A stretch of 64,000 nucleotides of DNA, taken from positions 1 through 64,000 of the forward strand of contig PUQB01000945.1 in the NCBI GenBank assembly GCA_003024785.1. The letters are read 5' to 3'. The DNA comes from Selaginella tamariscina (lineage: Eukaryota; Streptophyta; Lycopodiopsida; Selaginellales; Selaginellaceae). The number at the start of each line of letters is the position of its first letter. Positions within the stretch are counted from its first letter, which is position 1. The position numbers and the translations under genes are program-made. Below, one piece after another: positions 27,882 to 61,892 of this stretch. Below the pieces are notes generated by a model. The model searched no databases. It worked only from the letters and a program-made list of their open reading frames with translations, and had not been told where the DNA came from.

Positions 27882-30800
27882 TTATCCTCCCCTCTGCGGC
27901 TGTGTAGATGGTGATGGATCTGATGGTCCTGGATCCGTGTGAGCTGGGCCATCTAAGGTATGACCAAATGTACTCAACGAGTCTCGAACGACAAACCGTT
28001 TCATTCGAACCACGTGAACTATCTCAACCTCATGAGATCCCACCAAATGTACTTGATATATCTGAGGACCAACCTTTCGGAGTACTCGTTAGGGACCAAG
28101 CCACTTGTGTAATAAACCAGTTGCAAGTCCCAGGTGCAGTTAGCTTGGAAAAACGTACCAGGACTAAGTCACCGTCAGCAAAATCTGGTGGAATTTGATG
28201 TCGTGCATTGTAAGAAGATTGCTACCGCATTTGAGCTCGACCAAGATGTTCAGCAGACTCTGCACGCAGAAGAGGCAAAACAACATCCAAATGTCGAGCC
28301 CACATCTTTGCATCCTCGGCACGTGGCAGATTCGATGATAACCCCACTTCACTAGGCAACTTAGGATCATATCCATACAATGCCTTGAATGGAGAGATAC
28401 CAATCGAACTCTGAATGCTTGTTACATAAGCAAATCTCAAACATCGCAAATACCAATCCCAGTCCGTGTGATTGAAGTTCACATACTTCGAGATCATACC
28501 CTTGAAGGTCCGATTCAATCGCTCCACCAAACCATCAGTTTGTGGATGATACGGAGAGGCAATGAATGTTTTACCCCTAACCTCTCACACAACACTCGGA
28601 ATACCTCTGCAATGAAAGCGGGGCCATTGTCTGATAACATCCGCTCTGGACAAGAATGCTGCAAAACCACATTATCGAACAGAAACAAAGCTGTTGACAT
28701 GGCAGTTGCATCCGGAAGAGCACCAACCTCCACCCATCGAGTTAAATAATCGGATACAACAATGATGTACTGGTTACCTTGAGAAGAACGTGGAAAAGGT
28801 CCCATTAAATCCACTGCAATTAACTCAAAAGGGCGAGAGACATTGATGGATTCCAACACTCCCCATGGCCCGAGTCGTAGAGGAATTCCGAGTTTGACAA
28901 GTGGGACAGCTTTGAATATACCTGATCACATCACCACGCATGCTGGCCAATAAAATGATCGGCGCAGCTTCTCCAACACTCGTTGGTGACCAAGATGACC
29001 TCCAACAATAGGTGAATCATGATATGCTCGAAGAAGGTGTGGAACATATGTAGAGGGTACAGCCAAACGCCATCTGTCCTCTGGATTTGTCCCAATAAAA
29101 TACAATAAACCATCCTGAAGTCGAAACTGAGCATGATATTGTCGAAACCGAGGTTCGGAAGACGGATTTGCAAACGCATCGCGTAATTGCCTCGTCCATG
29201 GTTCATGTTTTTGAGCATCCTGCCACTGTTCCAAGGATGGTAAGTCGGCATCGAATACCTGAGGGGCTTGTATCAAACCGAACTGCAGCTACTGCATGAG
29301 CAGGCAAAGTGGAATCGGAGAGGGGTGCTCGAGAAAGTGCATCCGCATCCACCATTGTTCGCCCAGGCCTGTGCACCACCTTAAAGTTATATACCTGGAG
29401 ACGTAATGCCCATCTGGCTACGCGACCCACTAAATTCTTCCGTTTTAATAAGGAAGTGACAGCAGCATGATCACACTCCAAAAGTTTCACTCCCATGTAA
29501 GTAGGCATGAAGTCGTTCAAAACCCCAAACAGCAGCAAGGCATTCTTTTTCAGTAGTGGAATAATTCCGCTCAGCCGGTGAGTACTCGACTAATGTAAGC
29601 CACCGGGTGTCGAATTGAAGAATCCACAGCATCAGTTTGCATCAATACACCACCAATACCAACATCTGAGGCATCTACTCGTAAAATGAACGGACGAGTA
29701 AAATCTGGGTATTGAAGCAATGGTGGAGTTGTCAGGAACTCTTTTAACTGGTCAAATGCCTGCTGACACCTGCGAGTCCACCTGAAAGATACCTGTGGAA
29801 ACTAACTCCCGAAGAGGGGCAGTTCGATCAGTGAGATGATCGATGAATCGACCCAAGTACTGCACCGTGCCCAAGAAACGTGGACTTCCTGTACTGTACG
29901 GGGACGAGGAACTCTCGAACAGCTCGCAACTTCATTGGATCCACCTGTAAACCCTCTCGAGATATACGGTAACCCAAGTAAGTGGTGTCGGTCGAACCAA
30001 ACACACACTTTTCAAGTTTCAACTTCAGGCCAACTTCTCGAAATCGATCAAGAACGCGCCGTACATCACGAATGTGATCCTCCCAAGAACCAGACCCATG
30101 AATGAGCACATCGTCGATAAAATCGGCAGTGATATCAGGCATATCGGAAAGAAGCTCATCCATCATGCGTTGAAAGGTGGCAGGAGCTGAAGTCAATCCA
30201 AAAGGCATGACCAAAAACTCGTAAAGACCAAATGGTGTCCGGAAGGCCGTTTTTGGAATATCCTCCTCAGCCATAGGAACCTGCCAATATCCTGATGCCA
30301 AATCCAACTTAGTAAACCATCGACTCTGACCCAAACGATCTAATAGATCGGCAGAGTTCGGAAGTGGATAGACATCTTTGATGGTAACATCGTTAAGAGG
30401 TCGGTAATCCACACAAAATCGGAGAGATCCATCAGGCTTGGGAACCAAATGAGGTTCACATGCCCATGGACTCCGTGACGGACGACACACTCGTTTACCA
30501 ATCATATCAGTAACTGTTCGCATGGCTGATAACTCCTTTGGTGACCTGCGTCGAACCGGGACTTTGAAAGGCTTTGCATTGCCGGTGGGTATACAGTGTC
30601 GAGTCTTCACACGTGCACCTTGGGACAGATCAAATTTGAACAAACTTGCATACTGTTTCTTAAGTTGTTCGATGCAGTGTGCTCGACACTCAGGTGACGG
30701 ATCCGGCATTTGAACCTGTTGAGATGAACACCACCCCAAGACCGGAATCAAAGGAGCTGTATGCGTGATACAAACAGCAACAAACTTCTCTGGACGTAAA

Positions 30801-32624
30801 GGAACAGACTGCAAAGACACAGACTCCAAGCGTAATACAGGAGGAGAGAGTGAAAAATCACATGTACCTTTCGACTGCTTTAACCAATCACATCCCAGAA
30901 TGATGTCAAAGACCTGGGAAGGGACAACCCTAAGAGACCCAGAGGGAAACTTACAGTTGGCACCCATAACCAGCGTAGTCGAAGTGGTGTACTGTGATAC
31001 TGCACGAGACTGCCCATTACCATATAAAATGTGCAAGACCTTATCTGCTCGTCTCAAGGGTAATGAGCACAATGCGCGCAGAGAAGTAGTTTATGGAAGA
31101 CATATTAGATCCTGTATCACAAGTACATGTACTGAAAACATCATTCACTCGTGTAGAAAATGTGAAAACTGGATGATTTGGTGGAACTTGCAACCCTTTA
31201 GATGCATAGCGGAAAAAAAGCATGGAGGTGGAGTTTCCATCGCACGGGATCCCTCCGTCGCCCGTACGATTACTGGTTTTCCGCAACAGATCCACCCGCA
31301 AGAAGCGTCATCATCTGGAAGCTCATCATCAGACATAATGGCCGCCACAGGTACACCATCCGGAACATATGGTCGCCAGCCTGGATGTGGTGGACGCCAA
31401 TCAGGATACACATCGCATGCCCGCCAAGTATGTCCAGGTGCCCAACAGGCAACTTGATTGGGTTGACCTGCATTGTTCCGATTCCTCCTGTCACGAATCC
31501 GTGGATTTTGACCACCACGGGCAGGAACTGGAGCAGGTGCAGGACGATTTCGTGGAGGTGGTCCACGGGGTGGGCCCGAGGTCGACCACGAAAGGCTTGT
31601 CGTGCGGGCACATATGCAGCAGCATCAACCTCCATTGGATCAGCACGCTGAAAGAGGAGCAGGTAACCCAAGGGGAACACGGCCCTCACCAGGCACCAAC
31701 TCAAAACGTTGAGCTAGTGCAAAAGCTTCCTCCAATGTGGTAGGACGAAGAGCCCGAACGAATCGAACAAGTTCGGGTCGCATAGTTGGCCATAACATAC
31801 CGAGCTTAATGGGCTCAGGCATGTTAGGATATGCACGCCGAACTAAATCCCCGAACCTAATACTGAACCGCATAACAGACTCACCAGGATGTTGTCGTAT
31901 CGCATGCAGTTGTTGGAAAGCATCATCTGAATCCTCAACTTTGCCAAACGTACGTTTGAGGCATTCCGTTAACCGATTACTATTGGCTTGAATCTCCGCA
32001 GCCAATCCATTATACCACTTGAGCGCAGGCCTTCCAAACATGTAGGGAATTCTCTGAGAGCACGGGCCTCATCCCAACCATGGTAACGAACAATGACTGG
32101 AAATGATCAAACCAGTGGTATACATCATCTCCCGGATCACCACAAAAAGATCGGGGTCGAACCCTCGGATTTGTGGCCTGTGAAGAAGACAAAGGAGCAC
32201 TAGAAGCAGATCCCCCGGCAGGAGGCTCAGGCGGAGGATGAACCCTAACAAAGCGCTCCAACAACTTCGTTTGTGCATCAATAGCAGTAGCAATAATGCT
32301 AAAAGCCGTCTCCATATTCATTGTCATGGAAACAAGAAAAGGAAGAGGCAAAGAAAGGATACCCAACTTCTCCACCAATGAAAGAGCAGATATATTAAAG
32401 ATGTCAGATACTATTCAATTACAAAAACCCTGCTTATATACAGAGACCTCCTGCCACATGGCACACATGCAACACGTGGCACTGACACATGGGGGCCAGA
32501 TCACCACCCATGTGTCACTACGCATGTGTGTATATACCATAGTTACGAACGCAGCCGGGATCCCGGCCGTGTTCACCGTGTTTCACGAACACGGCCATGG
32601 GTCGTGTTCCCACGTCCGTGTTCG

Positions 32625-37323: not shown

Positions 37324-39103
37324 TCAAGCTTGACAATCATGATGGTAATCTTGCAAGTCCGATACTATTCCCTGTAATCCAAAGACCACAGTAAACCCAG
37401 CGCACACACAAAACACACGTATGAAAGACAGAAACCTGAATAATTTCTGTAGGCTGGGCTTGTTGCTCTCGAGAGTTGCGTAGAACTCTTTGGGAATATC
37501 CACCTTGCAGACAACGCAAGAGCAAGAAGCCATCGCATGAAGCAGCAAACACATTATGTGATACTCATGGCCGCAAGATCCCAATGTATACCAACCTGCA
37601 ACATTTTACAAAAACACAAATAATTTTATTTGACATGTATGCATATAAAAATCATTTGTGTTCATCTATCACTCACTCACACAAATGCGTGTCAAATATA
37701 TGCAGTAAATCAGACCTTCAGTTGTGAAGCCCTGGGAACAAATTGGACATTCACTTTCAGGTGTTTAACATCCAAGCTACTCGATGCCTGGAAATACAAA
37801 GTAATAGACTAAGTACACCTGTATGTAATCTTGATTTACTTACCGTGGCCCTGGGCCTCTTTGGAGCAACAACCTCCGATGGACATGGTTCTTCAGCAGG
37901 CCTTTTGGAAGCTGGACTTTCCTGAGGTTTCTTCTTCTTCTTGTCCTTCTTCTTCTTGTTGTAGTCGTGAGTTTCTCTATCTGCCCCGATCTAGACTGCT
38001 CCACAGCAACGTAATCAACCGTATATTTAAGGAAATACTCCATGTAGCACGCCTTCACGAAGAACACCATCATCTTCTCCGACTGCATCTCATGCCCATA
38101 CACGTCCTTGTATCGTTTCTTGATAAACTCCGCAAAGTCCTTGTCACTACATGTCTTCAGAAACGCATATCCTCCCTGGATCTTCCGAAACAGAGAATGA
38201 ACTTGAGCAGTAGAAGCATTTGTTCTGACCGTGAACCACTTTGTGACAATCTCCTTGTTGGGTTCCTCAGCATCTTCTGCAGAATGTGTGTTAGCTTAAG
38301 TAGAAAAAAAAACACAATAACGTACCTGCACTTAGCTCCGGTGACGGAGGGATCTTAGGTGTCGGTGTGAAGCTTTCTTCTTTTGAACATACTCGTCCTT
38401 AAGTTTCTCAATCTTCATGTTTCTGGACCGCTCCACAGCAAGATGATCGACAGGCTCCTTGAGAAATACTCCATGTAGCATGCCTTGACGAAGAACAACA
38501 TAATCTTGTCCGAGTCCATCTCTTTACCATAATCTCCATGTACCGTTCTTGATGAATTCCAGAAAGCCATTGTCCGAGCATGTGTTTGCAATCACATGAG
38601 TTCTGTTTGTCTGCTTGAAGATTTTCCCGATTCTGCCAGTGCTAGTCTTCGCTCTGATAACAGCCCAGCTTGTAATAATCTTCTTATTGGGTTCTTCATT
38701 CTCTGCAGCATGGTATGTGGGTTCCACGGAGACGTTTATCTCTCTCTAACTCACCTTGTGTGGTGCTTTCCTTCTTAGGTACTTGAGCTTCTGTGGCGCT
38801 AAGCTCTTGGGGTTCTGTGGTGATTTTGCCATTAGGTTCTTGGGCCTCTGACAATCGTGGGAATGAGCAAAGAGGTTGAGAACAGCAGGAGAAGAGTACC
38901 TTGTGTAGTGACTTCCGGCGCCGTGGCCTGCTCTTGTGCTCCTGGGGAATGCGTGAAAGATCTAATGAGGATAACTACTGATTTGCACAGGAGAGCCTAC
39001 CTTGAGTGGAAATTTGCGGCGTATCGAAGGCTTGAGGCTGAGGTGGGGCTGAATCGGGTGCGCTAGGGTCCTTAGCTCCGCCTTCTTCCTCCTGCAACGC
39101 CAT
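37324..39103 (-). pseudogene. Two-domain RING-H2 gene (novel repeated domain), minus paralog
   Basis: Start MALQEEEGG at 39103. Short phase-1 exons follow: 39001-39103, 38900-38941 and 38755-38847, rich in Q, E and T. Exon 4 (38326-38702) holds domain copy 1 (IITSWAVIR, NTCSDNGFLEFI, FFVKACYMEYF, VDHLAVERSR) but needs about three frame changes. Exon 5 (37844-38276) holds domain copy 2 (VTKWFTVRTNAST, TCSDKDFAEFIKKRYKDVYG, FFVKACYMEYFLKYTVDYVA). Exon 6 (37716-37753) and exon 7 (37324-37595) form a RING-H2 finger: CPIC, then CGHEYHIMC, then CVVC, typical of E3 ubiquitin ligases. A hydrophobic stretch (FVFCAG-type, near residues FIRVFCVCAGFTVVF) before the stop could be a membrane anchor. Domain 1 damage suggests a pseudogene, although exons 5-7 stay open together. 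Confidence 0.72.
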
Positions 39104-40398
39104 ACCTTTCTCTAATAAGTTAGACCGTTATGACATGATCAGCCGCTTATGTTTATTTATTACGTTTTGTTATATATTTTTGCAACGCATGCTCAAAAAG
39201 AGTTCCCAGCGCTGAGCGAGCATGTTGGATGCACAACTGCAACATCCTGCTCACTGCATATGCCCACAACGGCATCCCATAGCGTCTGTGTATACTCATA
39301 TCAACTCATACATACGTGTATTAAACAAAGACTATTCCACTTCGTCTATCTGTTTTCACCTCTGATTACGTCACTTTTATTTCAACTTTACTTCTAATTG
39401 TCTATATATGCTAAAGGTTTATTAAAGAACGCTTCAAACGTAGCTAAAATCCACGCGCTCTACCTCAACTTTGGACAATCTCTATAGAACGTAATCAATG
39501 TGTGTTGTCAAGTATGTGTTGTGTAAACGAGTGCGTATTTAATATATATCTCAAACATTACTTTTAAAAATGCTATGTATAAATATATACAAATGTAATG
39601 ATATAAGATATGGGTATATCCTATTTTTATTAACGTGCAAAAGCAGTGAGATAATAGTACTCTCCCACGTTACTGACCGGGATTCGATTCCCCGGGTGAA
39701 TTTTGTTGATTATTAAAATGATTACATACTATACATTGTAGTGTTATATCAAATAAATATTAAATGTATACAATAATTGGATTTAGCACTCATTGACAAA
39801 TTAATTTGCTTAGTGATTTCTGATTATGCATGAAAAGAACAACATCATATATATGGACCTCAATAACGCCGTCCATGGAGTTTGAACCCGTGACTAAACA
39901 GTTACAGACACTGAGGTTGAACGGCTTATGTTATACTGTGGTATGTATATGACAATAAAATACTTAATAGCGTACTGGTGTAGTGGTAATCAGAGTACTG
40001 CCTGTTTGTACTTGAAACACCATTGAGAAAATTATATACATCTATATGATTGCTCAAAACACGTATCCAGTTATGTATATAGTGGCAGATTCAAAATATA
40101 TAAAAAATTAAATTGTATTGGATGTGATGTTTACAGGCAGGTACTAACGTGACAAACACAGGCGCTATGTATATATGTCCGTATTTTGCAAGTTTAATAC
40201 ATATAACTAAGTGGGTATACACGTATATACGATGATGTTCGATTTGATTAAACAATACCTCTGCACGCATTTAATCGTGTATTAATAAGTAAATGTGAGC
40301 CATATAATGAACTTACTTAATTAGCCATGTACTTAACAAATAAATGAGAACCCTACCTGAGAAGAACAAGGGCCCTAGATCAGGGTTTTAGTAGATAC
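39104..40398. promoter_or_regulatory. Shared 1.3-kb spacer between head-to-head paralogs
   Basis: The two start codons face away from each other across this spacer, so it must hold both promoters. It also contains tRNA-like patches: 'ggattcgattccccgggtg' at about 39680, an inverted 'gagtttgaacccgtgac' at about 39877, and an A-box-like 'tggtgtagtgg' at about 39976. These are probably worn tRNA-derived SINEs. Confidence 0.5.
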
Positions 40399-41310
40399 AT
40401 GGCGCAGCAGGAGGAGGAGGAAGGAGCGGCCAACGCCCCCAATTCACCGATTTCGGCCGCAGTAGAATCTACACAAGGTACATTCCTTCCGTGTGTTCGA
40501 GAGGGTTTCATACATCTTGTTCTGTTCTTCCAGAGACCGAGGAACCAACAAGGAACCGACCAGTCAAGGTACATCCGTTGCTGAAGAAGCCCAAGAAGCT
40601 AATGGGGCTGTCGCTACAAAAGGTAGATTTCTATCTGTTGAATGATTTTGTGAGTGCTTAAAAAATGATTGTGCAGAGAATGAGGAGGCCAAGAAGACAG
40701 TCACGAGCTGGCTCACCGTCAGATACAGGGTTAGTACTGGCGAAATTGCGGTTCTTTTTGGGCAGATCAACAGGACGCATGTGTCTGCAAGTAGCTGTTC
40801 CGATGTGGGTTTTGTGGATTTCGTAAGGAAACGGTACAATGAAGTGTATGGCAAGGATATGGATGACTCGGACAAGATGACTATGTTCTTTGTGAAGTCG
40901 TGCTATATGGAATATTATATGGGGTATACAGTGGATCATCTGTCTGTCGAGCGGTCCAGGAGGTTGGAGACAGAGAGGGCTAATGCGTCTGTCCGGAAGA
41001 AGACACCCAAGAAGAAAGCTTCACCAAAGGAGCCTGGCCAGTCTTCTGCGGAGAATGCCACATCAGCTCCTGAGGATGCTCCGTCAGCTCCTGAGGATGC
41101 CCCGTCAGCTCCTGAGGATACCCCATCGGCTCCTGAGGAGGATGCTCCATTGACTACAGAGAATGAGGCTTCAGTTCTAGAGGAAATTTCGCCTTCTAAG
41201 AGGCCTGCACCAACGAAGGTGTTTAGCAGGAAGAAGAAGAAGACTATTGTAAGTTTAACTGCTTTACATCTCTGGTTATGTCTGTATGGACATATGTCTG
41301 TATGTGTGGG

Positions 41311-41346
<36 letters not shown>

Positions 41347-42976
41347 GTGTGTGTGTGTGTGTGTCGGTATGTATGTATATCTTTCTGTAGAGGACACCAA
41401 CGAAGATAATGTTTTTGCAATGCAGGAGAAGCCAAAGAGTCGTACCCAGAAGAAAGAAAAGGAGAAACCCAAGAAGGCAGCCAGCACACGAGGTACATTT
41501 TGTTATTTACTATTTACATATTGACACATAACACTTCTGTGTACGTCTATGAAGAGATACCTGCATTTTCTCTCTCTCTCACACACAGGCGCGCGCACGC
41601 GCACACACTTTGACATGTCTCAGTTTGTTTAATGCCTATACAAACCAGCATTTATCTAATTTACTCATAAATATAATCCATGACAGACTATGGAAAGTCC
41701 AAGGAAACCATCAAGAGCTGGTTCGCAGTCAGGACCAGAGCTTCTACAGTGAAGGTTGGGGCGCTGTTCAGTCAGATCCACGGAGGCTATGCACATGCAG
41801 ACACGTGTTCAGACAAGGGCTTTGTGGAGTTCATCAGGAAACGATACAAGGACGTGTATGAGCAGGAGCTGGACTCCAACAAGATGATCATGTTCTTTGT
41901 CAAGTCATGTTACGTGGAGTATTATCTGGGATACACAGTCGACCATGTTGCTGTGGAGAAGTCTAGGAGGGTTCACATAGACAGGCTGAAGGACTACGTT
42001 TTGCAATCATCCAAGAAGAAGAAGAACAAAACTCCATCTAAGGAGAGCAAGGAGAGCAAGGATAACGCTGTGGAAGGTTCACCGGAGTCGCCACCACGAG
42101 AGGATACTCCGTCAGCTCCTGATGATGAGGAAGATAAGTCAGCGCCGGACGTGGCCCCAGAAGTTCCGGAGGATATTCAGTCGGCACCGGAGGAAGTTCC
42201 ATCGGCTCCCAGCAGACTCCAGCGTCACCCGAGGAGGCTCCATCTACGAAGAGGCCCGCTTCTCCGTTTCCATCGGATATGGTTGTTCCAAAGAGGCCAA
42301 GGTCCACGGTAATTTATTGAAGTTATATTTACAATTCAGATTAGATTTGTTTGATAGTTTGGACTCATTAACTTTGTGTGAGTGTGTGTGGTGCACCCGC
42401 ACACGTCAGTGTGTATGTATTTATTCTTATTAATTTGGAGGTTATAGATAGTTTATTTTTCTTCCATATTAAATAGAACTGCTACATGTTAACACACGCA
42501 CGTACACACGGTGTTTCATAATACTGTGTAAATTAGTGTCCTTATTTTATACACATTGTTTTACATCTGTGCCAGGTGTGAGATCCCTGGAACTCGTAGA
42601 GTACGAAGGTCCATATGTCAAAGGTTAGCTTGAAATCTGTTCGGAACACAAGTTATCATAGATATGCCCGCACTCCATAGTTGATCTCAGAATTACACTT
42701 ACTAGTCTTATAATAGTGGATATATGTGATTGTATAATGTATTTTGTTAATATTGTTAACATTTATATTGATTTAAACATTGTTTAATTTAAAATTAATA
42801 CACATGGGTGCGTATTACATAATAATCAGTAGTTAAAGTAATGACTAGTTTTAAATTTAATATCAATCTATTTTGTTTTATTAAGTGATCAAACCTGGTG
42901 TTGTTTTATCATCAGGTGGGGCAAGGCCATCCTGCTCGCCAAGATGCCATCGAAGAGATGTGATATATATGTTTAA
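40399..42976 (+). CDS. Two-domain protein of unknown family (novel repeated domain), plus paralog
   Basis: Proposed exons are 40399-40477, 40536-40622, 40677-41248, 41426-41492, 41687-42308, 42576-42623 and 42916-42976. All have GT/AG borders and join in frame to 511 residues. The start MAQQEEEEGAANAP mirrors the minus paralog. Domain copy 1 (exon 3) shows TSWLTVR, SCSDVGFVDFVRKRY and FFVKSCYMEYYMGYTVDH. Domain copy 2 (exon 5) shows KSWFAVRTRAST, TCSDKGFVEFIRKRYKDVY and FFVKSCYVEYYLGYTVDHVA. Linkers are basic (KKK) and carry acidic-proline SAPED repeats, suggesting a nuclear or scaffold protein. The RING exons of the paralog are missing; the tail instead reads QRGQGPRCEIPGTRRVRR to CDIYV. A frame change near 42215, relative to the paralog's KRPA-type tail, leaves the frame open. 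I do not recognise the domain. Confidence 0.62.
41064..41150. repeat. In-frame 24-bp coding repeat (SAPEDAP)
   Basis: Four units of 'tcagctcctgaggatgc' type lie inside exon 3 of the plus paralog and encode SAPED(A/T)P repeats. Confidence 0.9.
41308..41363. repeat. (TG)n microsatellite in an intron
   Basis: A long TG run in the third intron of the plus paralog. It keeps a frame open by chance and produces a VCVCVC string that is not protein. Confidence 0.93.
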
Positions 42977-45950: not shown

Positions 45951-46082
45951 AGTAAATAAAATAATAACAATGTGGTATGCAGTGCATTGTGTACTTTTGG
46001 ATTCACTGTGCGTATGTGAACAGAAATCATTGTGTTTTTAATATATATATACATTTGTGTGTGTGAGAGACGTTTATCAGCA

Positions 46083-48019
<1,937 letters not shown>

Positions 48020-48438: not shown

Positions 48439-50888
48439 CTATTTTCGCCAGTTCTTCTGGCCGATGAGGAGCCTTTTATCGTTTTGACCAGGTATCTGTA
48501 TTATCCGCGCCTCCCACCGGATTTGCACCAGTAAAGAACGAGTAGTCTCTATAGCTTGTGTCTCGTCTTGTAACAAAAGCCATCCCTGTTTACAAGTTTA
48601 TTTGTTAAATGACAGTGTATTATTTACACAGAGACACACGTATATGTGCATGTATGCACGTCTCTTATTTGTATGCATGTGTATAGATGCAAGCATTGAT
48701 TCAGGCTCTCCTCGTGGATATGCATGTATACAAACGTCTATTATGTATGCATGAAAAATGCAAAACAATTAGGAAAAGTTTAGTCTAACAATGATAGAAG
48801 TATATACATACACAATAATTATCATGCATCATAGGACGTCATGGCTTCTGATTATATATTATGATATAAAGCTACCTCTGGTCGCAATAATCGATCCATT
48901 TCCAGCACAAGTCTGGATAGACCACATGGTCTAGAGCTCGTAAGTTCCTGTGACAAGAGCGATGTACCGTACAAGAGATCGTAAGACCTCGGGTAGGCCG
49001 GAAAAGCTTCACACCTAAGGCAGTTACATCAGTACACATTTATTCATAGACATTTATTAAGTGAGGAAATATGATTAACTAGAACAATAAGTATTAATAT
49101 TCACAGATAAACAAGCAAGTCCTTATGTTACACACACATTATACGTATGTACATAATGCTTATACGGGAGGTCATCGTCACAGTCATTTATTATGTGTCC
49201 TTTTCCTTGTCGGAGACACGTTATCATATCAGTAACATAAGGTGATATTTACATAATCAAAAGTCCGACCATATGGATTGCAATATCCCTAAGTGTTAGA
49301 TAGCATCTCTCTCTCACTCTGCGTGCGTGTGCCCGCGTGTATAAATAGCTTACCAGTCATGATGGACACCCAGTAGTCCACGGTCAAAAACAGCGGATAG
49401 TGTGTTGTTTGGGCAGTAGTAGGTACAACGTTCATCACCCACACAGGCTTCCCAGACGTCAGAAGCGCAGCATTGAACCCACCGTACTGAGCATTCATGT
49501 CCATGACATTCCGTACTACGTTCTGTGGTGCGGATGGATCATCAGCTCCTGGCCTTTTCGGATGGTCCGAAAATATGACCGGAGTTAATAGGGACCAGTA
49601 GTTAAAAAGCTTTGCCAACCAGGATTGCACGTCCTCATTAAATTCCGTTGTAGGCATTCCTGAAACACGAAATGTAACTATCCGTGCAGCTTGTACATTG
49701 CCGGGTAGGCCTCACATACATAAATACACAACATCATATACTTATGTATGCATATATGACACTTTATGTTAGTCTATTATGAATGTGTGTTGAAAGTTAT
49801 GCATGCGTGTGGTGTGTGTGTGCCCGCGCGAATATAACTTAAGCTGACAATTTAGTGATGCATAGTGTACAAAGACACATACGCGAATATAGATATACAT
49901 ACGTAACGAGACACAATCTACGTATCCTAGGCATTTATCTATTTTCGACCTATTCTATCTTCTGTGTGGCACAGCTAATACATGTATATGCGATTTGTTA
50001 ATCTAGCTATCTAACTGTGGATATATCCATTTAGTACCGGATCATCTGTCTGTAAATGTGTGGTAGTTTATGTATTTAGTATGTATGTATGTATATAAGC
50101 ATGTTAACGTGAATATAACTACTGCTACTATCTAATGCACTTACCGTATCTTGCAAGACGTCTAGCGGTGAGCATGAGCCGATTTGGCCATTGGTGTTGC
50201 TGTTGAACTGTACGCCATCTTCCCTTTGGCGCCTCTGTTACGCAAGGCTTCAGTGATTTATTCCAAGGAGTATCCGTGTTAGAATCTTCCTCTTGACACA
50301 ATCTAGACCGCCTAAATATAAAAAAATTCGTTAACTCGAGTAAATAAAGTAAATCTTTAATGTAGTCAGCATGGTACTCTGTAATAACAATGAATATACG
50401 TATAGTCTATATACTGTATACTAGTATAATAATGGTAATGAGAATTATACCTTGAAGAGTAGCAGTGCTGCTTGGTTGTCTTTTGCCAGATGATGGTTTG
50501 TCCATTATGAGCAATTGGCTCCAGCACATGCTTTGATGTCAGCTTTCCCATTGTTTTCCTCAGTGCATTGTCCGATTCAGTTTGATTTAATGACGAAAGC
50601 GCCCATATGAAGTAACCTCCAGGACGAAGTAACCTATTCGCTTCAAATAGAAATAATCCATCTAAATAAAAATAAAATACGTGTGTTAGCAACAAATATT
50701 CATATGTAAGAAAAAATATTTCATATTCCGTATGTCGAAAATTTAAGATGTAGTGTGTGTGTGTCTGTGTGTGTGTAGAGAGAGAGAGAGAGAAAACGAA
50801 ACCACTCTAAGCTCACTTACGTGTTACACATACTATTAACGAAAATGTAAGTGACGGGCCTTATGTACGTACAAACACATAAATGTCT

Positions 50889-50983
<95 letters not shown>

Positions 50984-51938
50984 AATATGATATGTATACA
51001 CACAATGTCTTTGCATGTATACATAAGCTACCTTTTTGATGCCATTGAACATCACAGCGACTGCAATGGATGGCATCATAAGCTGAGAAGGGAACGGAAG
51101 TTGCTTAGAGGAGAAGGAACCAATCAGAGCAGGGAGCCCACGCTCTTGGGCAATTTGCACTGCAGCTCCATGTTCCTCATATGCTGATATTGACATGGTA
51201 AGGACATTCTTCGAAAGAAGATGAGCTGCAAAGGAGGCCAAGCCACCACCAATATCTAGCATCACACGAACCTGCAAACGGAGCACTTAAATAGACATAT
51301 GCATATGAGCATGGTACATATATAAATGTATGGTGTGGTGTATATATCTTCGCATATGTACCCCAATCTCATTCATAGACTTGTTGTCATCTTTAGACAG
51401 CATTTCCTGAAGTCCTAACACGTAATTCTCCATAACGGACTCTTCTAAAGGAAAGTTATCACATTTTCCTCCATCATAATTCTGCATGCCATCAGTCATA
51501 TGTACGTGTCATTTATATATGCACATAACCACACACCACACACACACAGAAGACAGTACCTCCTTGGTTGTTCCCGAACGATCTTCACATTGCTGCTCCA
51601 TACATTATTTGCGCATGATGGCCACTTCTGGGGCAGTCGATATCCCTTAGGTGGCCGTATGATGCACTGCTTCTGTATATGACCGCATGCCCGATCTGGG
51701 TTTTGAGCACTGTAGCATGGAACGTGATCTTCCATGCCTTCTGAACATGCCTTGGCATTCTTAAGACTTGGATTATCCGTGTTAAACACGGGCTCGTAGG
51801 TAATAACTTGAAGTGCACCTTCTTGAAGCCTTCTGTAGCTATTATATACTCTGTGTCTACCCCGGAGCCTAAAACCGTGACAAGGAGGAGAATGCTCGCA
51901 AAGCAAAGTGAGAGGCATTTGAGAAACGGTATTACCAA
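48439..51938 (-). pseudogene. PMT-type (QUA2-like, DUF248) methyltransferase gene with frame slips
   Basis: Golgi type II membrane SAM-dependent methyltransferases of this family are linked to pectin methylation. Exons on the minus strand are 51560-51938, 51362-51481, 51032-51271, 50451-50661, 50145-50311, 49354-49659, 48876-49014 and 48439-48595, about 573 codons, near the usual 600. MVIPFLKCLSLCFASILLLV is a signal anchor. IIRPPKGYRLPQKWP, VRVMLDIGGGLASFAAHLLS (SAM motif I), EANRLLRPGGYFIWA, RNVMDMNAQYGGFNAALL, VWVMNVVP and LEMDRLLRPE are family signatures in the right order. Frame slips occur in exon 1, in exon 3 (before AYDAIHCSRCD), in exon 4 (around MCWS, self-cancelling) and in exon 6 (before AVFDRGLLGVHHDW). 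All splice sites are intact, so this is either a recent pseudogene or suffers from assembly indels. Confidence 0.88.
50887..50983. repeat. (CT)n-(AT)n compound microsatellite
   Basis: About 60 bp of CT followed by about 32 bp of AT, within a methyltransferase intron between exons 3 and 4. Confidence 0.95.
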
Positions 51939-51999
51939 CCTACTCCTGTTCCGAACTATGGTGGCGGGATTTGTGGTAATTTAGGGGACTTTGTGGGCG

Positions 52000-53719: not shown

Positions 53720-54361
53720 TGCCTCCAATTTCTAAGTTTGGCGCCTTTAACAAATCTCTCTACAACTGGGACACCTATACATCGGTTGATTTTCCTTATT
53801 ATTGTTAAAATACTCAAACTTAGTTGGGTTGTGGCCACAGAAGATGCAAGTCGGCCCCGGAGACGACGGCTTTACCAAGCCTGCCGATGTGGTCGGCTCC
53901 AACGAACTCTCAAGTCTTTTAAATTTCTTAGACCTCCCAGTTTTGGCAACCTTCTCAGCCAAAGGCTGGGCATCCTGTGCAGGTTCAGACAAAGCTAGAG
54001 TTCCCACAGTTGGAGATGTTGGGGATGGAGGAGGCAAGCTCAATACAGGTGGAGGTTGAACCATAAGCTGGGATTCAGGAGCAGAACTGGGTATACCTTG
54101 TGGTGCCTCCATAGAACTCTGTGCATTGGGAATCCCACCGAGAGGCACATGCACTTCAATTTCATCCCTTTTCTCGTTACAGTTTCCCTTAATGTTCGAC
54201 CTATTGTCTTCCATCATCTTAGAGACTTCAAGAATAGGACGATTACTGATCTGGAAATTCACCAATTTAACTTCCTCGTTGCACGCCGCGTTTGCATGGT
54301 CTAGGAGATATCGATCCAACGACGAGTACCACTTCTCCTCTAAGACATATACACCTGACAT
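53720..54361 (-). pseudogene. Dof-like zinc finger gene, damaged
   Basis: Dof proteins are plant transcription factors that bind AAAG through a CX2C-X21-CX2C finger. An open frame of 204 residues starts at 54361. After a proline-rich middle (PPPVLSLPPPSPTSP) it reaches CIFC at residues 172-175 and CPSC at 197-200, spaced exactly 21 residues, with TKFEYFNNN and QPMYRC between them, matching the Dof core TKFCYYNN...QPRYFC. The frame then stops, but the following bases in another frame read FVKGAKLRN, matching the Dof continuation (W)TKGGxLRN. The usual final Trp-containing part is altered. Finger position at the C-terminus and the E for C in TKFEY are atypical. A second, more decayed copy lies at 59360-59890. 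Confidence 0.72.
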
Positions 54362-54774
54362 GTTGTGAATATGAAAAAATATATGAAGAAACCCAGAAAA
54401 TGTGAAGAAACCTAGAAATGTTTCCTAATTTATACTCCGTCAAAGCGAGCACGTAGTGTCCGTGGAATATGCCTTTTAAATTCCCACGTGTAATTATACG
54501 TCACTTTCTTCCACGTCACATCACTTTAAGTGACATGGCAGATGATGTGGAAGGGGTAATGCTAAAAATTAAGAAAAATAAAAATATATAAAAATCAGAT
54601 GCATTAATCTTAAACATCTTTAATGTATATATCTATAACATTTTAAATCGAAATCAAATTAACAAATACTAAAATGAAATGGTTCACACACACGTAAGTC
54701 TCTCAAAGTGTACGTACAGAAACCTAAGTTTTACGAGTATAAATATATAATCTATTTGAGATCAAAAATTTGGC

Positions 54775-57219: not shown

Positions 57220-58270
57220 TGGGTTCGGCCTTGCTCATTTCACTGGTTCGATACTTTCGTCCAGAATTTTTACGATGACTCTCGATGGAGCCGGATTTTT
57301 GGGATGAAGAGAGCCACTTTCAATGCTCTAGTGGATCAGCTCCAGCCTCTCCTTGAGTGAAAGAACACTGTTACCGGCTAGCAGTACCTGTGTGAGTTCG
57401 AGTTGCTTGTACCATCTCCAAGCTAAGGTATGGCATTTCATTTTACTCGGTCTCTAAGAACTTCGGCATCGGTGAGAGTACTGCATGCGAGATCTTCTAG
57501 GACACAATCACAGGAATCCGAGTAGCTCTCGGCCACCTGATCAGGTTTTTGGAGACTGTTGAGGAGCTTGGTGGAGTCATCGCTAAGAAAAGTAAACTCC
57601 CCAACGTTGCCAGGGCAATGGATGGGTCTTAGATACCAATTCAAACTCCAGAGGTGGATCCAGACAGCTACAATAAGCACCATCGATTCTCAATTGTTCT
57701 CCAGGCAATGGTGGATAATAGGAGAAGGTTTTTGGATGTGTATTGTGGTTGGCCAGGGTCTGTTCATGATTCAAGAGTTTGCAAGAACTCAAGGTTTTAC
57801 AAATGGGGACTAGCCAAGGAGGTGCTTCAAGAACCAATATTTCCCCTTCGACGCTTCAACTTGAAGCTTTATCTTGTGGGGGATAAGGCTTACCCATGCT
57901 CTGCTCTTGTCATGACCCCATATAAAAAAGAGAGTTCCATTGTCCAACTTGAAAAGGTTCTACAACAAAGAGCTTTCTCAGGCTCGAGAAATCGTTGAGA
58001 GAAGCTTTGGTCTTCTTAAAGGTTTTCTTTTTTTGGTTCATTTTAAATTTTTTTTGTTGTTTTCTAAACTGAGTGTGAAGGGAAGTGGAGAATCCTTCAA
58101 CATGGTGTTCCAGCAGAGCCAGATGCCACTCCAGAAGTTGTAGTTACTTGTTGCATTCTCCATAATTTTTTGCTTGATGTTGGAGAGGAAGAAAATGATG
58201 AGGAATTTCATGAAAAAATTCGGGTGCGCTACTTGAAGGGAATGATCCTGCGGGTGAGCAAATTCAGGAG
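57220..58270 (+). pseudogene. Harbinger DDE transposase
   Basis: DDE_Tnp_4-type nuclease. ARAMDGS near 57613 carries the first catalytic Asp, GWPGSVHDSRV near 57748 the second, and LVGDKAYP near 57873 the conserved GDxAYP box. REIVERSFGLLKG continues, after a 60-bp intron-like T-rich gap, with WRILQHGVPAEPDATPEV, followed by CCILHNFLLDVGEEENDEE (the third-acid region). Stops near 57358 and 57630, plus frame shifts in the N-terminal half, inactivate it. The open piece 57654-57998 holds most of the core. Confidence 0.88.
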
Positions 58271-60202: not shown

Positions 60203-61892
60203 ATGGCGCGCTTGGAGGAGCTTCTGGCTATGGCGCTGGTGCACAGAGGTATGCATTTCTGATAGATCGTGCTAGCTCTACCTCAGAGTGAAGCATTTCT
60301 AGACTAGATGAAGAATTCTATGTATGGGGGCTACAGGCTATGGCGTCACTGCACAGACTCTAGCATTTGTGCTGGATCGGCCTTAGAATGAAAGTATTTG
60401 TAGAGAAGACTCGTTAGATGCAAAATTCTATGTATGGGAGCCAACGATTCATCCGTTTCGATGCTTGGACTAGAGCAAAGCTGTAGCTTGGGGAATTTCA
60501 CAGTAGGGAAGGCATTCTGCGATGAGCACTTACTGGGACAATCTGACACGAGCATTTCCATGGATTCCAAACCACAGGAGCAGCAAGACGGGGATTTCAA
60601 ACAGGAACCCACTTTCTCAGACACGGATATAAAGATACAGGACTATGTGGGTAGTGAAGGAACAAGTGAGCATACCTTCTCTTGCAACTTGGAGGACTTC
60701 AGGTCGAAGAAATATTATTTATTTAACGCAGAGGCCCATGAGCTGATGATCAAAAGCCTCCTGGAGTCGTCTAATCCTTCAGCTTCTGAGATTTCAATCG
60801 CAGATCCGACTTTTCAACCATTACCATGGCAGAACAAGCGAGGAATCACTTTCAATAGCGCTATCGAGGACCGCTGGAGGGATTTCAAAGCGAAGCTCGG
60901 TGTGAAGATCGATGCTTCTCGGAAGAGGTTTCTGTTCCACAAGAGAGACGCAAGCAGGTACATTCTATGATATACGTATAGATAGGAGTTAACTATAGAC
61001 ATGTAGCAGGTACATTCCACATATGGGACAGTGGCTTGAAATTGTGAAAGCTTGCCACATTGATGCTGCTGAAAGGCACTGGGGTAGAAATCTCACAAAA
61101 CATCAGATAACTAAACGGTGGATGTATGGAGAGAGGAATCATGGCATACCGGAGTCCTTCGTAGATGCATTCATAGATAACTGTGGGTGCTGCAGAAGAG
61201 AATTGCTTCCTCCAGTGCCCACCACCACAGCCAAGTTTGCAGCAGAATAACAAGAAGCGTAAACTTGGTAAGAAGTTCAATACACAGATGTTTGATGTGC
61301 ACTTCATCAAGCAGAGGCTGGACGAGATTGCCCAACAAGTTGCTGCAGCTCAATTGGATCGTGAAACGTCCGATTTTAAGATGGGCACAAAGGGTTTCGA
61401 GGATTTTAAGCGTTTTGGACGGATCTTCTTCGGAGTTTGAGAAGATCGATGAGGATGAACAGAGTAAGCTTAAGGAGAAGATTACTGCTATTCGTAATGA
61501 AATGGACTCTATGCTTGTTCATTTACCATCCATGTCCAGAGGCAAGTTTCTTCATTTCCTAGAGGCTATGGACGGTGCTATTACGGAGCTACGTAACCCG
61601 GACTTGGACAGGCAAACCTTCTCTCCCAAGGTAAGTTTATACACCGTGTGTATATATACACTATGTAATGTATTTATACGAACGCAGCCGCATAGTTGCA
61701 GATTACAAGATGCATTTATATATGCAGTTTGTTGTTAATGTGTTTACGTTTGAAGAGTTTGGTGGTTGTAAAAAACACACACGCACGTCATGTTATATAA
61801 TGTGTATTTTGCAGCTACCTGCTATTGCGAACGAAATCCAGAAACCAAAAGAAGCTAAAAGAGTGAAATGGAAGGACTTGGCACGCTCTTGA
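60203..61892 (+). CDS. Coiled-coil protein of unknown family
   Basis: I do not recognise the family. A probable first exon MARLEELLAMALVHR (60203-60248, donor gtatgc) joins in phase to 60441-60957, though a start at 60434 is possible. Exon 2 has NKRGITFNSAIEDRWRDFKA and KIDASRKRFLFHKRDASR. A 52-bp intron follows. Exon 3 starts at 61010 with IPHMGQWLEIVKACHIDAAE, WGRNLTKHQITKRWMYGE and, after a frame slip near 61185, NTQMFDVHFIKQRLDEIAQ. A second slip near 61410 leads to a charged coiled coil (EDEQSKLKEKITAIRNEMDS) ending at 61629. The last exon (61815-61892) gives PKEAKRVKWKDLARS and stop. Basic and acidic patches and the KVKW-type end suggest a nuclear protein, but this is inference. The two slips may be real or assembly errors. 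Confidence 0.55.
60226..60445. repeat. Diverged tandem duplication at the 5' end of the 60-kb gene
   Basis: Two units of about 110 bp share 'ggctatggcg', 'gcacagag/ct' and 'aattctatgtatgggggc/agc'. Each contains candidate start codons, so it affects the choice of start. Confidence 0.72.

Follow-up and report, generated by a model that had tools for sequence, protein, structure and literature searches.

The 64,000-nucleotide (nt) stretch of Selaginella tamariscina DNA analysed here as a whole (the window; contig PUQB01000945.1, labelled C1332:1-64000 in a genome of 300,702,823 bases and 1391 contigs) carries two divergent multi-exon genes, one on the minus strand at 39103-37436 and one on the plus strand at 40399-42308. 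Judged from their sequences, they are two divergent members of a Selaginella multigene family, whose predicted proteins combine one or two copies of an orphan domain with a long charged linker, which is rich in Lys, Pro, Ser and Glu and bears a basic motif of KRPR type; most members also have a RING-H2-like finger at the C-terminus. By "orphan" we mean that the domain has no significant match in the Pfam, NCBIfam, PHROGs, PDB and BFVD libraries. A review describes the genome of this species as a PacBio/Falcon assembly of 300.73 Mb with a guanine plus cytosine content of 37.4% (PMC8558194). The divergent ATGs lie at 39103 (minus) and 40399 (plus), bearing out the head-to-head gene pair proposed in the initial annotation. 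The exon-intron outline of both genes, with splice sites picked by eye, contains twelve GT...AG introns, of which seven measure 49-59 nt and the others 120-292 nt, and one further candidate intron of 64 nt. The features of the two genes are:

39001..39103, minus strand: exon 1 of the minus gene (MALQEEEGG...), start codon at 39103-39101
38374..38688, minus strand: orphan domain, minus d1, in three frames, within exon 38702-38326; near-identical copy on C1047
37972..38259, minus strand: orphan domain, minus d2, within exon 38276-37844
37716..37787, minus strand: exon coding for the first RING half (ESECPICSQGFTTEG); its frame is interrupted in the window but not in the C1047 copy
37436..37595, minus strand: exon coding for the second RING half (GWYTLGSCGHEYHIMC...CVVCK) and, probably, for the C-terminus
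37372..37435, minus strand: 64-nt GT...AG stretch, probably either an intron or 3' untranslated region (UTR); without splicing it would read as a hydrophobic tail
40399..40477, plus strand: exon 1 of the plus gene (MAQQEEEEGA...), start codon at 40399-40401
40688..40975, plus strand: orphan domain, plus d1, within exon 40677-41248
41698..41985, plus strand: orphan domain, plus d2, within exon 41687-42308
42285..42308, plus strand: basic motif VPKRPRST of the plus gene, directly before the splice donor at 42309

The orphan domain is about 90 residues long and present in two copies per gene, four in the window. A profile built from the two plus copies and searched against the rest of the window recovered minus d2 at an expectation value (E) of 8e-40 and minus d1 in pieces (4e-15, 5e-9 and 7e-4), with the next match at 0.07; the similarity among the four copies is far above chance. 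All four were found where the initial annotation had placed them, except that minus d1 consists of three pieces and has no single open frame. The window copies share 47-60% amino-acid identity, and the ratios of nonsynonymous to synonymous rates (dN/dS) among them are 0.14-0.46, which argues that they have been selected as protein. In a domain tree of 13 rows, one of which was the joined pieces of minus d1, plus d2 and minus d2 formed a pair with a support of 0.91 and both d1 copies fell outside it; the two-domain layout is therefore older than the split between the plus and minus genes, as had been supposed. Across 11 family copies, including a partial one, nine positions never vary (W8, V11, L23, F42, F67, C71, Y72, E74, and Y75), and the last helix of the domain is rich in Arg and Lys.

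AlphaFold, given six alignment rows as input, predicted plus d2 as an alpha/beta fold with five helices and short strands at a predicted local distance difference test score (pLDDT) of 92.5 and a predicted template-modelling score (pTM) of 0.84, although two of the five models were lower (80.9 and 65.7). For plus d1, pLDDT was 91.4 and pTM 0.83, with all five models at 88 or above. Foldseek searches of PDB with the plus d2 and plus d1 models, and one search of the BFVD viral models, returned no match at E<=0.001. The queries put to Pfam, NCBIfam, and PHROGs were individual copies, a typed consensus, and alignments of the family; the best Pfam match had an E of 0.013, with scattered families and every match below cut-off, and the best values in NCBIfam (0.047) and PHROGs (0.06) were not significant. 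Sequence searches of PDB with a single copy and two profiles yielded no significant match (profile bests of 0.15 and 1.3), and scans of the viral contigs and genome contigs collections yielded no relative. As modelled, the domain folds confidently yet is unrecognised in the searched libraries, in agreement with the earlier remark that it could not be matched to any familiar family. The listings and opening parts of abstracts covered by our literature search contained nothing resembling a family of this domain joined to a RING.

Two candidate likenesses were set aside as chance. A virion protein of Shewanella phage SXP01 (29% identity, E 0.07 in a tblastn search of phage records) reached only E 0.2 with the domain profile (Z=200,000). 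Many of the 37 weak Foldseek matches of d2 carry EF-hands, but only two of the nine for d1 are of this kind; against the d2 model, EF-hand and EH domains had Foldseek probabilities of 0.09 or less and query TM-scores of 0.38 or less.

We searched the genome itself with two domain proteins and the second RING exon, and examined 25 further stretches together with the window; a domain search run after these stretches had been chosen pointed to no additional contig. The resulting counts are lower bounds, the genome search scoring best candidates only. At least 23 domain units were found, 17 of which are followed by a RING exon on the same strand, 0.3-1.2 kb away; when near-identical assemblies were merged, there were at least 16 units, 13 of them with a downstream RING exon. 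Domain plus RING is therefore the usual layout and the plus gene an exception to it. The contrast drawn originally between one paralog with a RING and another without is best inverted: a RING is usual in the family, and none is detectable in the plus gene. Three merged units have no RING: the plus gene of the window, a C683 fragment, and a single 5-7 kb stretch that was assembled three times (L020, L021, and L022, on C121, C858, and C1170) and has no RING near its domain copy. A candidate exon for a RING remnant 3' of the plus gene was rejected: its alignment was matched by 99 of 1000 shuffles, and blastn and hmmsearch also spoke against it. Some RING exons have no domain in the fetched stretch (C695/C904, for example), and members lie close together on C683, C1204, and C451/C894.

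At the position matching VPKRPRST of the plus gene, the minus gene has APKRPRAT, and a KRPR or KKPR motif before the RING part is found in both window genes and in two of the four relatives read (L012 and L014). Three of these four (L012, L014, and L015) have, by eye, a helical-looking stretch between the linker and the RING; the minus gene is without one, the intron before its RING exon being only 56 nt.

The finger of the minus gene follows the pattern C-x2-C-x14-C-x-H-x2-H-x2-C-x10-C-x2-C, with all eight zinc ligands spread over two exons, so that the RING-H2 first assigned to this paralog stands, in the form of what we term a RING-H2-like finger. Profile searches of PDB with four one-exon family RINGs matched RLIM (RNF12) at E=2e-6 and RNF38 at 6e-5, and the joined window RING matched PF13639 at E=1.3e-4, below the gathering score. 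The C3H2C3 ligand order and spacing, together with the significant match to known RINGs, place the predicted finger in the RING fold. Wherever the first half was found, its CxxC contains a hydrophobic residue. Another RING-like exon type (YQLGCGH-Y---C), possibly a repeat family, occurs in similar copies on L031-L034 (C642, C1282, C825, and C324).

The hydrophobic tail that the initial annotation had attached to this RING was not supported. It is coded by the stretch 37435-37372, which is 64 nt long, runs from GT to AG, contains 47% T, and reaches a Kyte-Doolittle maximum of 2.11 over 19 residues. Leaving aside the C1047 copy, none of the 17 further RING exons, a few of them frame-broken, has a comparable tail, with a maximum of 1.09 in the 15 that could be scored, two being too short; the RING exons of L019 (at 2988) and L030 do continue for 30-50 residues, which include a less strongly hydrophobic part (0.79 and 0.96). 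In L012, L026, and L027, stop codons precede the stretch that aligns to the window's 37435-37372, with modest support for the alignments of this 3' end (6, 15, and 22 of 1000 shuffles equally good, respectively). This stretch is probably an intron or 3' UTR rather than a hydrophobic tail; if it is spliced, the protein would likely end a few residues past the RING exon. The family-wide transmembrane tail that would mark a membrane-anchored RING protein is missing from these predicted exons.

Three-frame translations, inspected by eye, revealed about eight frame breaks in the two genes: in the minus gene within d1 (which runs over three frames), at the end of d1, in the tail of d2, and in the first RING exon, and in the plus gene within exon 2 and within the tail. 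Contig C1047 contains a near-identical copy of this locus, which differs from the window by 36 substitutions and 77 gap openings over the two longest aligned stretches, a third stretch of ~350 bases between the genes (78% identical) being left out of the count; long-read assembly error would be expected to leave such an excess of gap openings over substitutions. The C1047 copy keeps a continuous frame at four of the eight breaks, namely two within minus d1 and one each in the RING exon and plus exon 2. At the other four, it has an extra base but gaps of its own at one, is ambiguous at another, and shows no difference at two, and it is itself broken at places where the window is intact.

Other near-identical pairs, compared on the first five lines per pair, gave the following numbers of substitutions and gap openings: 1 vs 13 for L020/L021, 1 vs 14 for L020/L022, 27 vs 76 for L026/L027, 32 vs 83 for L023/L028 (first four pieces), 25 vs 28 for L028/L030 (first three pieces), and, for the longest piece of L014/L016 and the one after it, 3 vs 30 and 41 vs 31, respectively. 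Gaps thus outnumber substitutions in most, though not every, near-identical pair. At least half of the frame breaks look like long-read assembly error; broken frames in this assembly are a warning against calling pseudogenes without reads. Two neighbouring genes also have frame changes by eye: a class III-type peroxidase gene at 46020-48016 (PF00141 in three open reading frames), in which the changes are similar and which is useful as a control for assembly error, and a putative S-adenosylmethionine-dependent methyltransferase gene at 49292-51939 on the minus strand (PF03141), in which the change lies within an exon.

Domain and RING evolve at different rates. The nonsynonymous rate (dN) of the domain exceeds that of the RING in all 21 pairs of the seven genes having both parts, L013 being represented by its first domain copy. 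For the RING, dN/dS was 0.06-0.41 (35/45 pairs giving a value); for the domain, it was 0.14-0.54 in 39 of the 40 pairs (out of 55) that gave a value, and 0.94 in the remaining one. Both parts thus appear to be under purifying selection. In the young pair C615/C1204, there are 28.5 nonsynonymous and 6.5 synonymous changes over 86 codons of the domain and 5.5 and 4.5, respectively, over 68 codons of the RING exon, corresponding to a dN/dS of 1.06 (bootstrap 0.44-3.93) vs 0.28 (0.04-1.21), with overlapping ranges. The young pair formed by the second copy of L013 and L015 had values of 0.25 (0.03-1.23) for the domain and 0.10 for the RING, showing no acceleration. The quicker change of the domain is a trend and no proof of adaptation; a domain changing faster than the RING would be expected if the targets met by the domain change while the partner of the RING stays constant.

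The explanation that we favour, and to which we give about an even chance, is that these genes encode a nuclear family resembling RING ubiquitin ligases (E3s), in which the faster-changing orphan domain binds the target. The proteins would enter the nucleus, and members having the helical-looking stretch may dimerise through it; the orphan domain would bind the target, and the RING would recruit the ubiquitin-conjugating machinery in the manner of RING E3 ligases. The plus gene product, with two domains and no detectable RING, may bind the same targets and leave them untagged, possibly as a competitor. Of the earlier suggestion of an E3 ligase with a substrate-recognition module, the E3-type idea is strengthened by the recurrent pairing of domain and RING, while substrate recognition is still something that we infer. 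Much plant ubiquitin specificity is built by joining recognition domains to a few ligase modules. A bolder version, which we consider unlikely, is that the domain is a new fold or fold family from spikemosses or early land plants, serving as the fast-evolving recognition part of private nuclear RING ligases with which RING-less paralogs compete. The confident predicted fold, the lack of a library match, and the RING in most copies make the domain an attractive target for structure determination, and the family of domain plus RING may offer a route to what a desiccation-tolerant spikemoss tags.

Several observations weigh against this E3-like explanation. Many active RINGs hold the ubiquitin-conjugating enzyme (E2) through a Trp four places after the sixth ligand and a Pro between the last two Cys, and these residues occur in none of the 13 unique RING rows; the predicted fingers thus lack two of the residues expected on the E2-binding face of an active RING E3 ligase. 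All six second-half ligands are kept in only eight of these 13 rows: one member each on C1204 and C894 has lost a Cys, one each on C683 and C1048 has lost a His, and a row from C451 is truncated. Among five RINGs scanned (window, L017, two in L018, and L019), only that of L019 passed the Pfam gathering score (PF00097, 21.9 vs 21), and two of the four relatives read, L015 and L017, showed no basic motif. The faster change of the domain could also reflect relaxed constraint, the young pairs giving 1.06 and 0.25. The family RING is therefore best regarded as a putative E3 module.

The missing Trp and Pro in 13 of 13 rows and the loss of ligands in some members would also fit a family of nuclear scaffold or chromatin proteins, combining a domain for binding protein or nucleic acid with a RING that serves as a non-ligase zinc module in a structural or protein-protein role; the Lys-rich linkers and the Arg/Lys-rich last helix of the domain point the same way. 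However, the RING is better conserved than the domain in all 21 pairs, and its best sequence matches among solved structures are named E3 ligases, and we consider a scaffold possible but doubtful. A decaying family, with the window copies being pseudogenes and their frames broken for that reason, seems to us quite unlikely. It would account for the eight or so breaks and for the fragments elsewhere (L011, L028), and C1047 shows no difference at two breaks and is clean across only four of eight. But C1047 does read on across those four and has its own breaks elsewhere, with gap openings (77) exceeding substitutions (36), as in most, not all, other near-identical pairs; the window peroxidase gene has, by eye, a similar break, and domain dN/dS stays below 1 even for the broken copy (0.14-0.44).

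An origin from transposons, in which a mobile element would carry the domain-RING gene as a passenger or as one of its own coding genes, is suggested by the clusters and fragments of the family and by two features of the same window, a Ty3/gypsy-like element (28-32 kb) and a match to DDE_Tnp_4 (57.6 kb). Such an origin is very improbable: the 300 Mb yielded about 16 distinct domain units as a minimum, the genes have several exons separated mostly by short introns, and the domain and RING open reading frames that were scanned matched neither a transposase nor a reverse transcriptase.

Within the favoured E3-like reading, the family can be set beside several known systems. RLIM/RNF12 and RNF38, the matches of the profile search, share its C3H2C3 ligand order and spacing; unlike them, the family RING is without the Trp after the sixth ligand and the Pro in the last Cys pair and is coupled to the orphan domain, and that of the window is split by an intron. 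BRE1/HUB-type proteins are E3s with a coiled coil plus a C-terminal RING. By general description, the family resembles them in its helical-looking stretch followed by a C-terminal RING and in its nuclear-type basic motif, but its helical part is much shorter and is absent from the window minus gene. F-box and MATH-BTB proteins form large plant substrate-receptor families that turn over by duplication. The likeness to these lies in the clusters, the fragments, and a recognition part that changes faster than the ligase part; however, they are built from other domains, and the spikemoss family is small, at about 16 units.

Further features seen in the window are:

60404-61735, plus strand: two long open frames, no Pfam match at E 0.01
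53750-54424: open frame with a match to the Dof zinc finger (PF02701) at its end
28225-32414, minus strand: Ty3/gypsy-like retroelement that carries a reverse transcriptase (RVT_1) and matches integrase weakly
57633-57995: DDE_Tnp_4 transposase fragment

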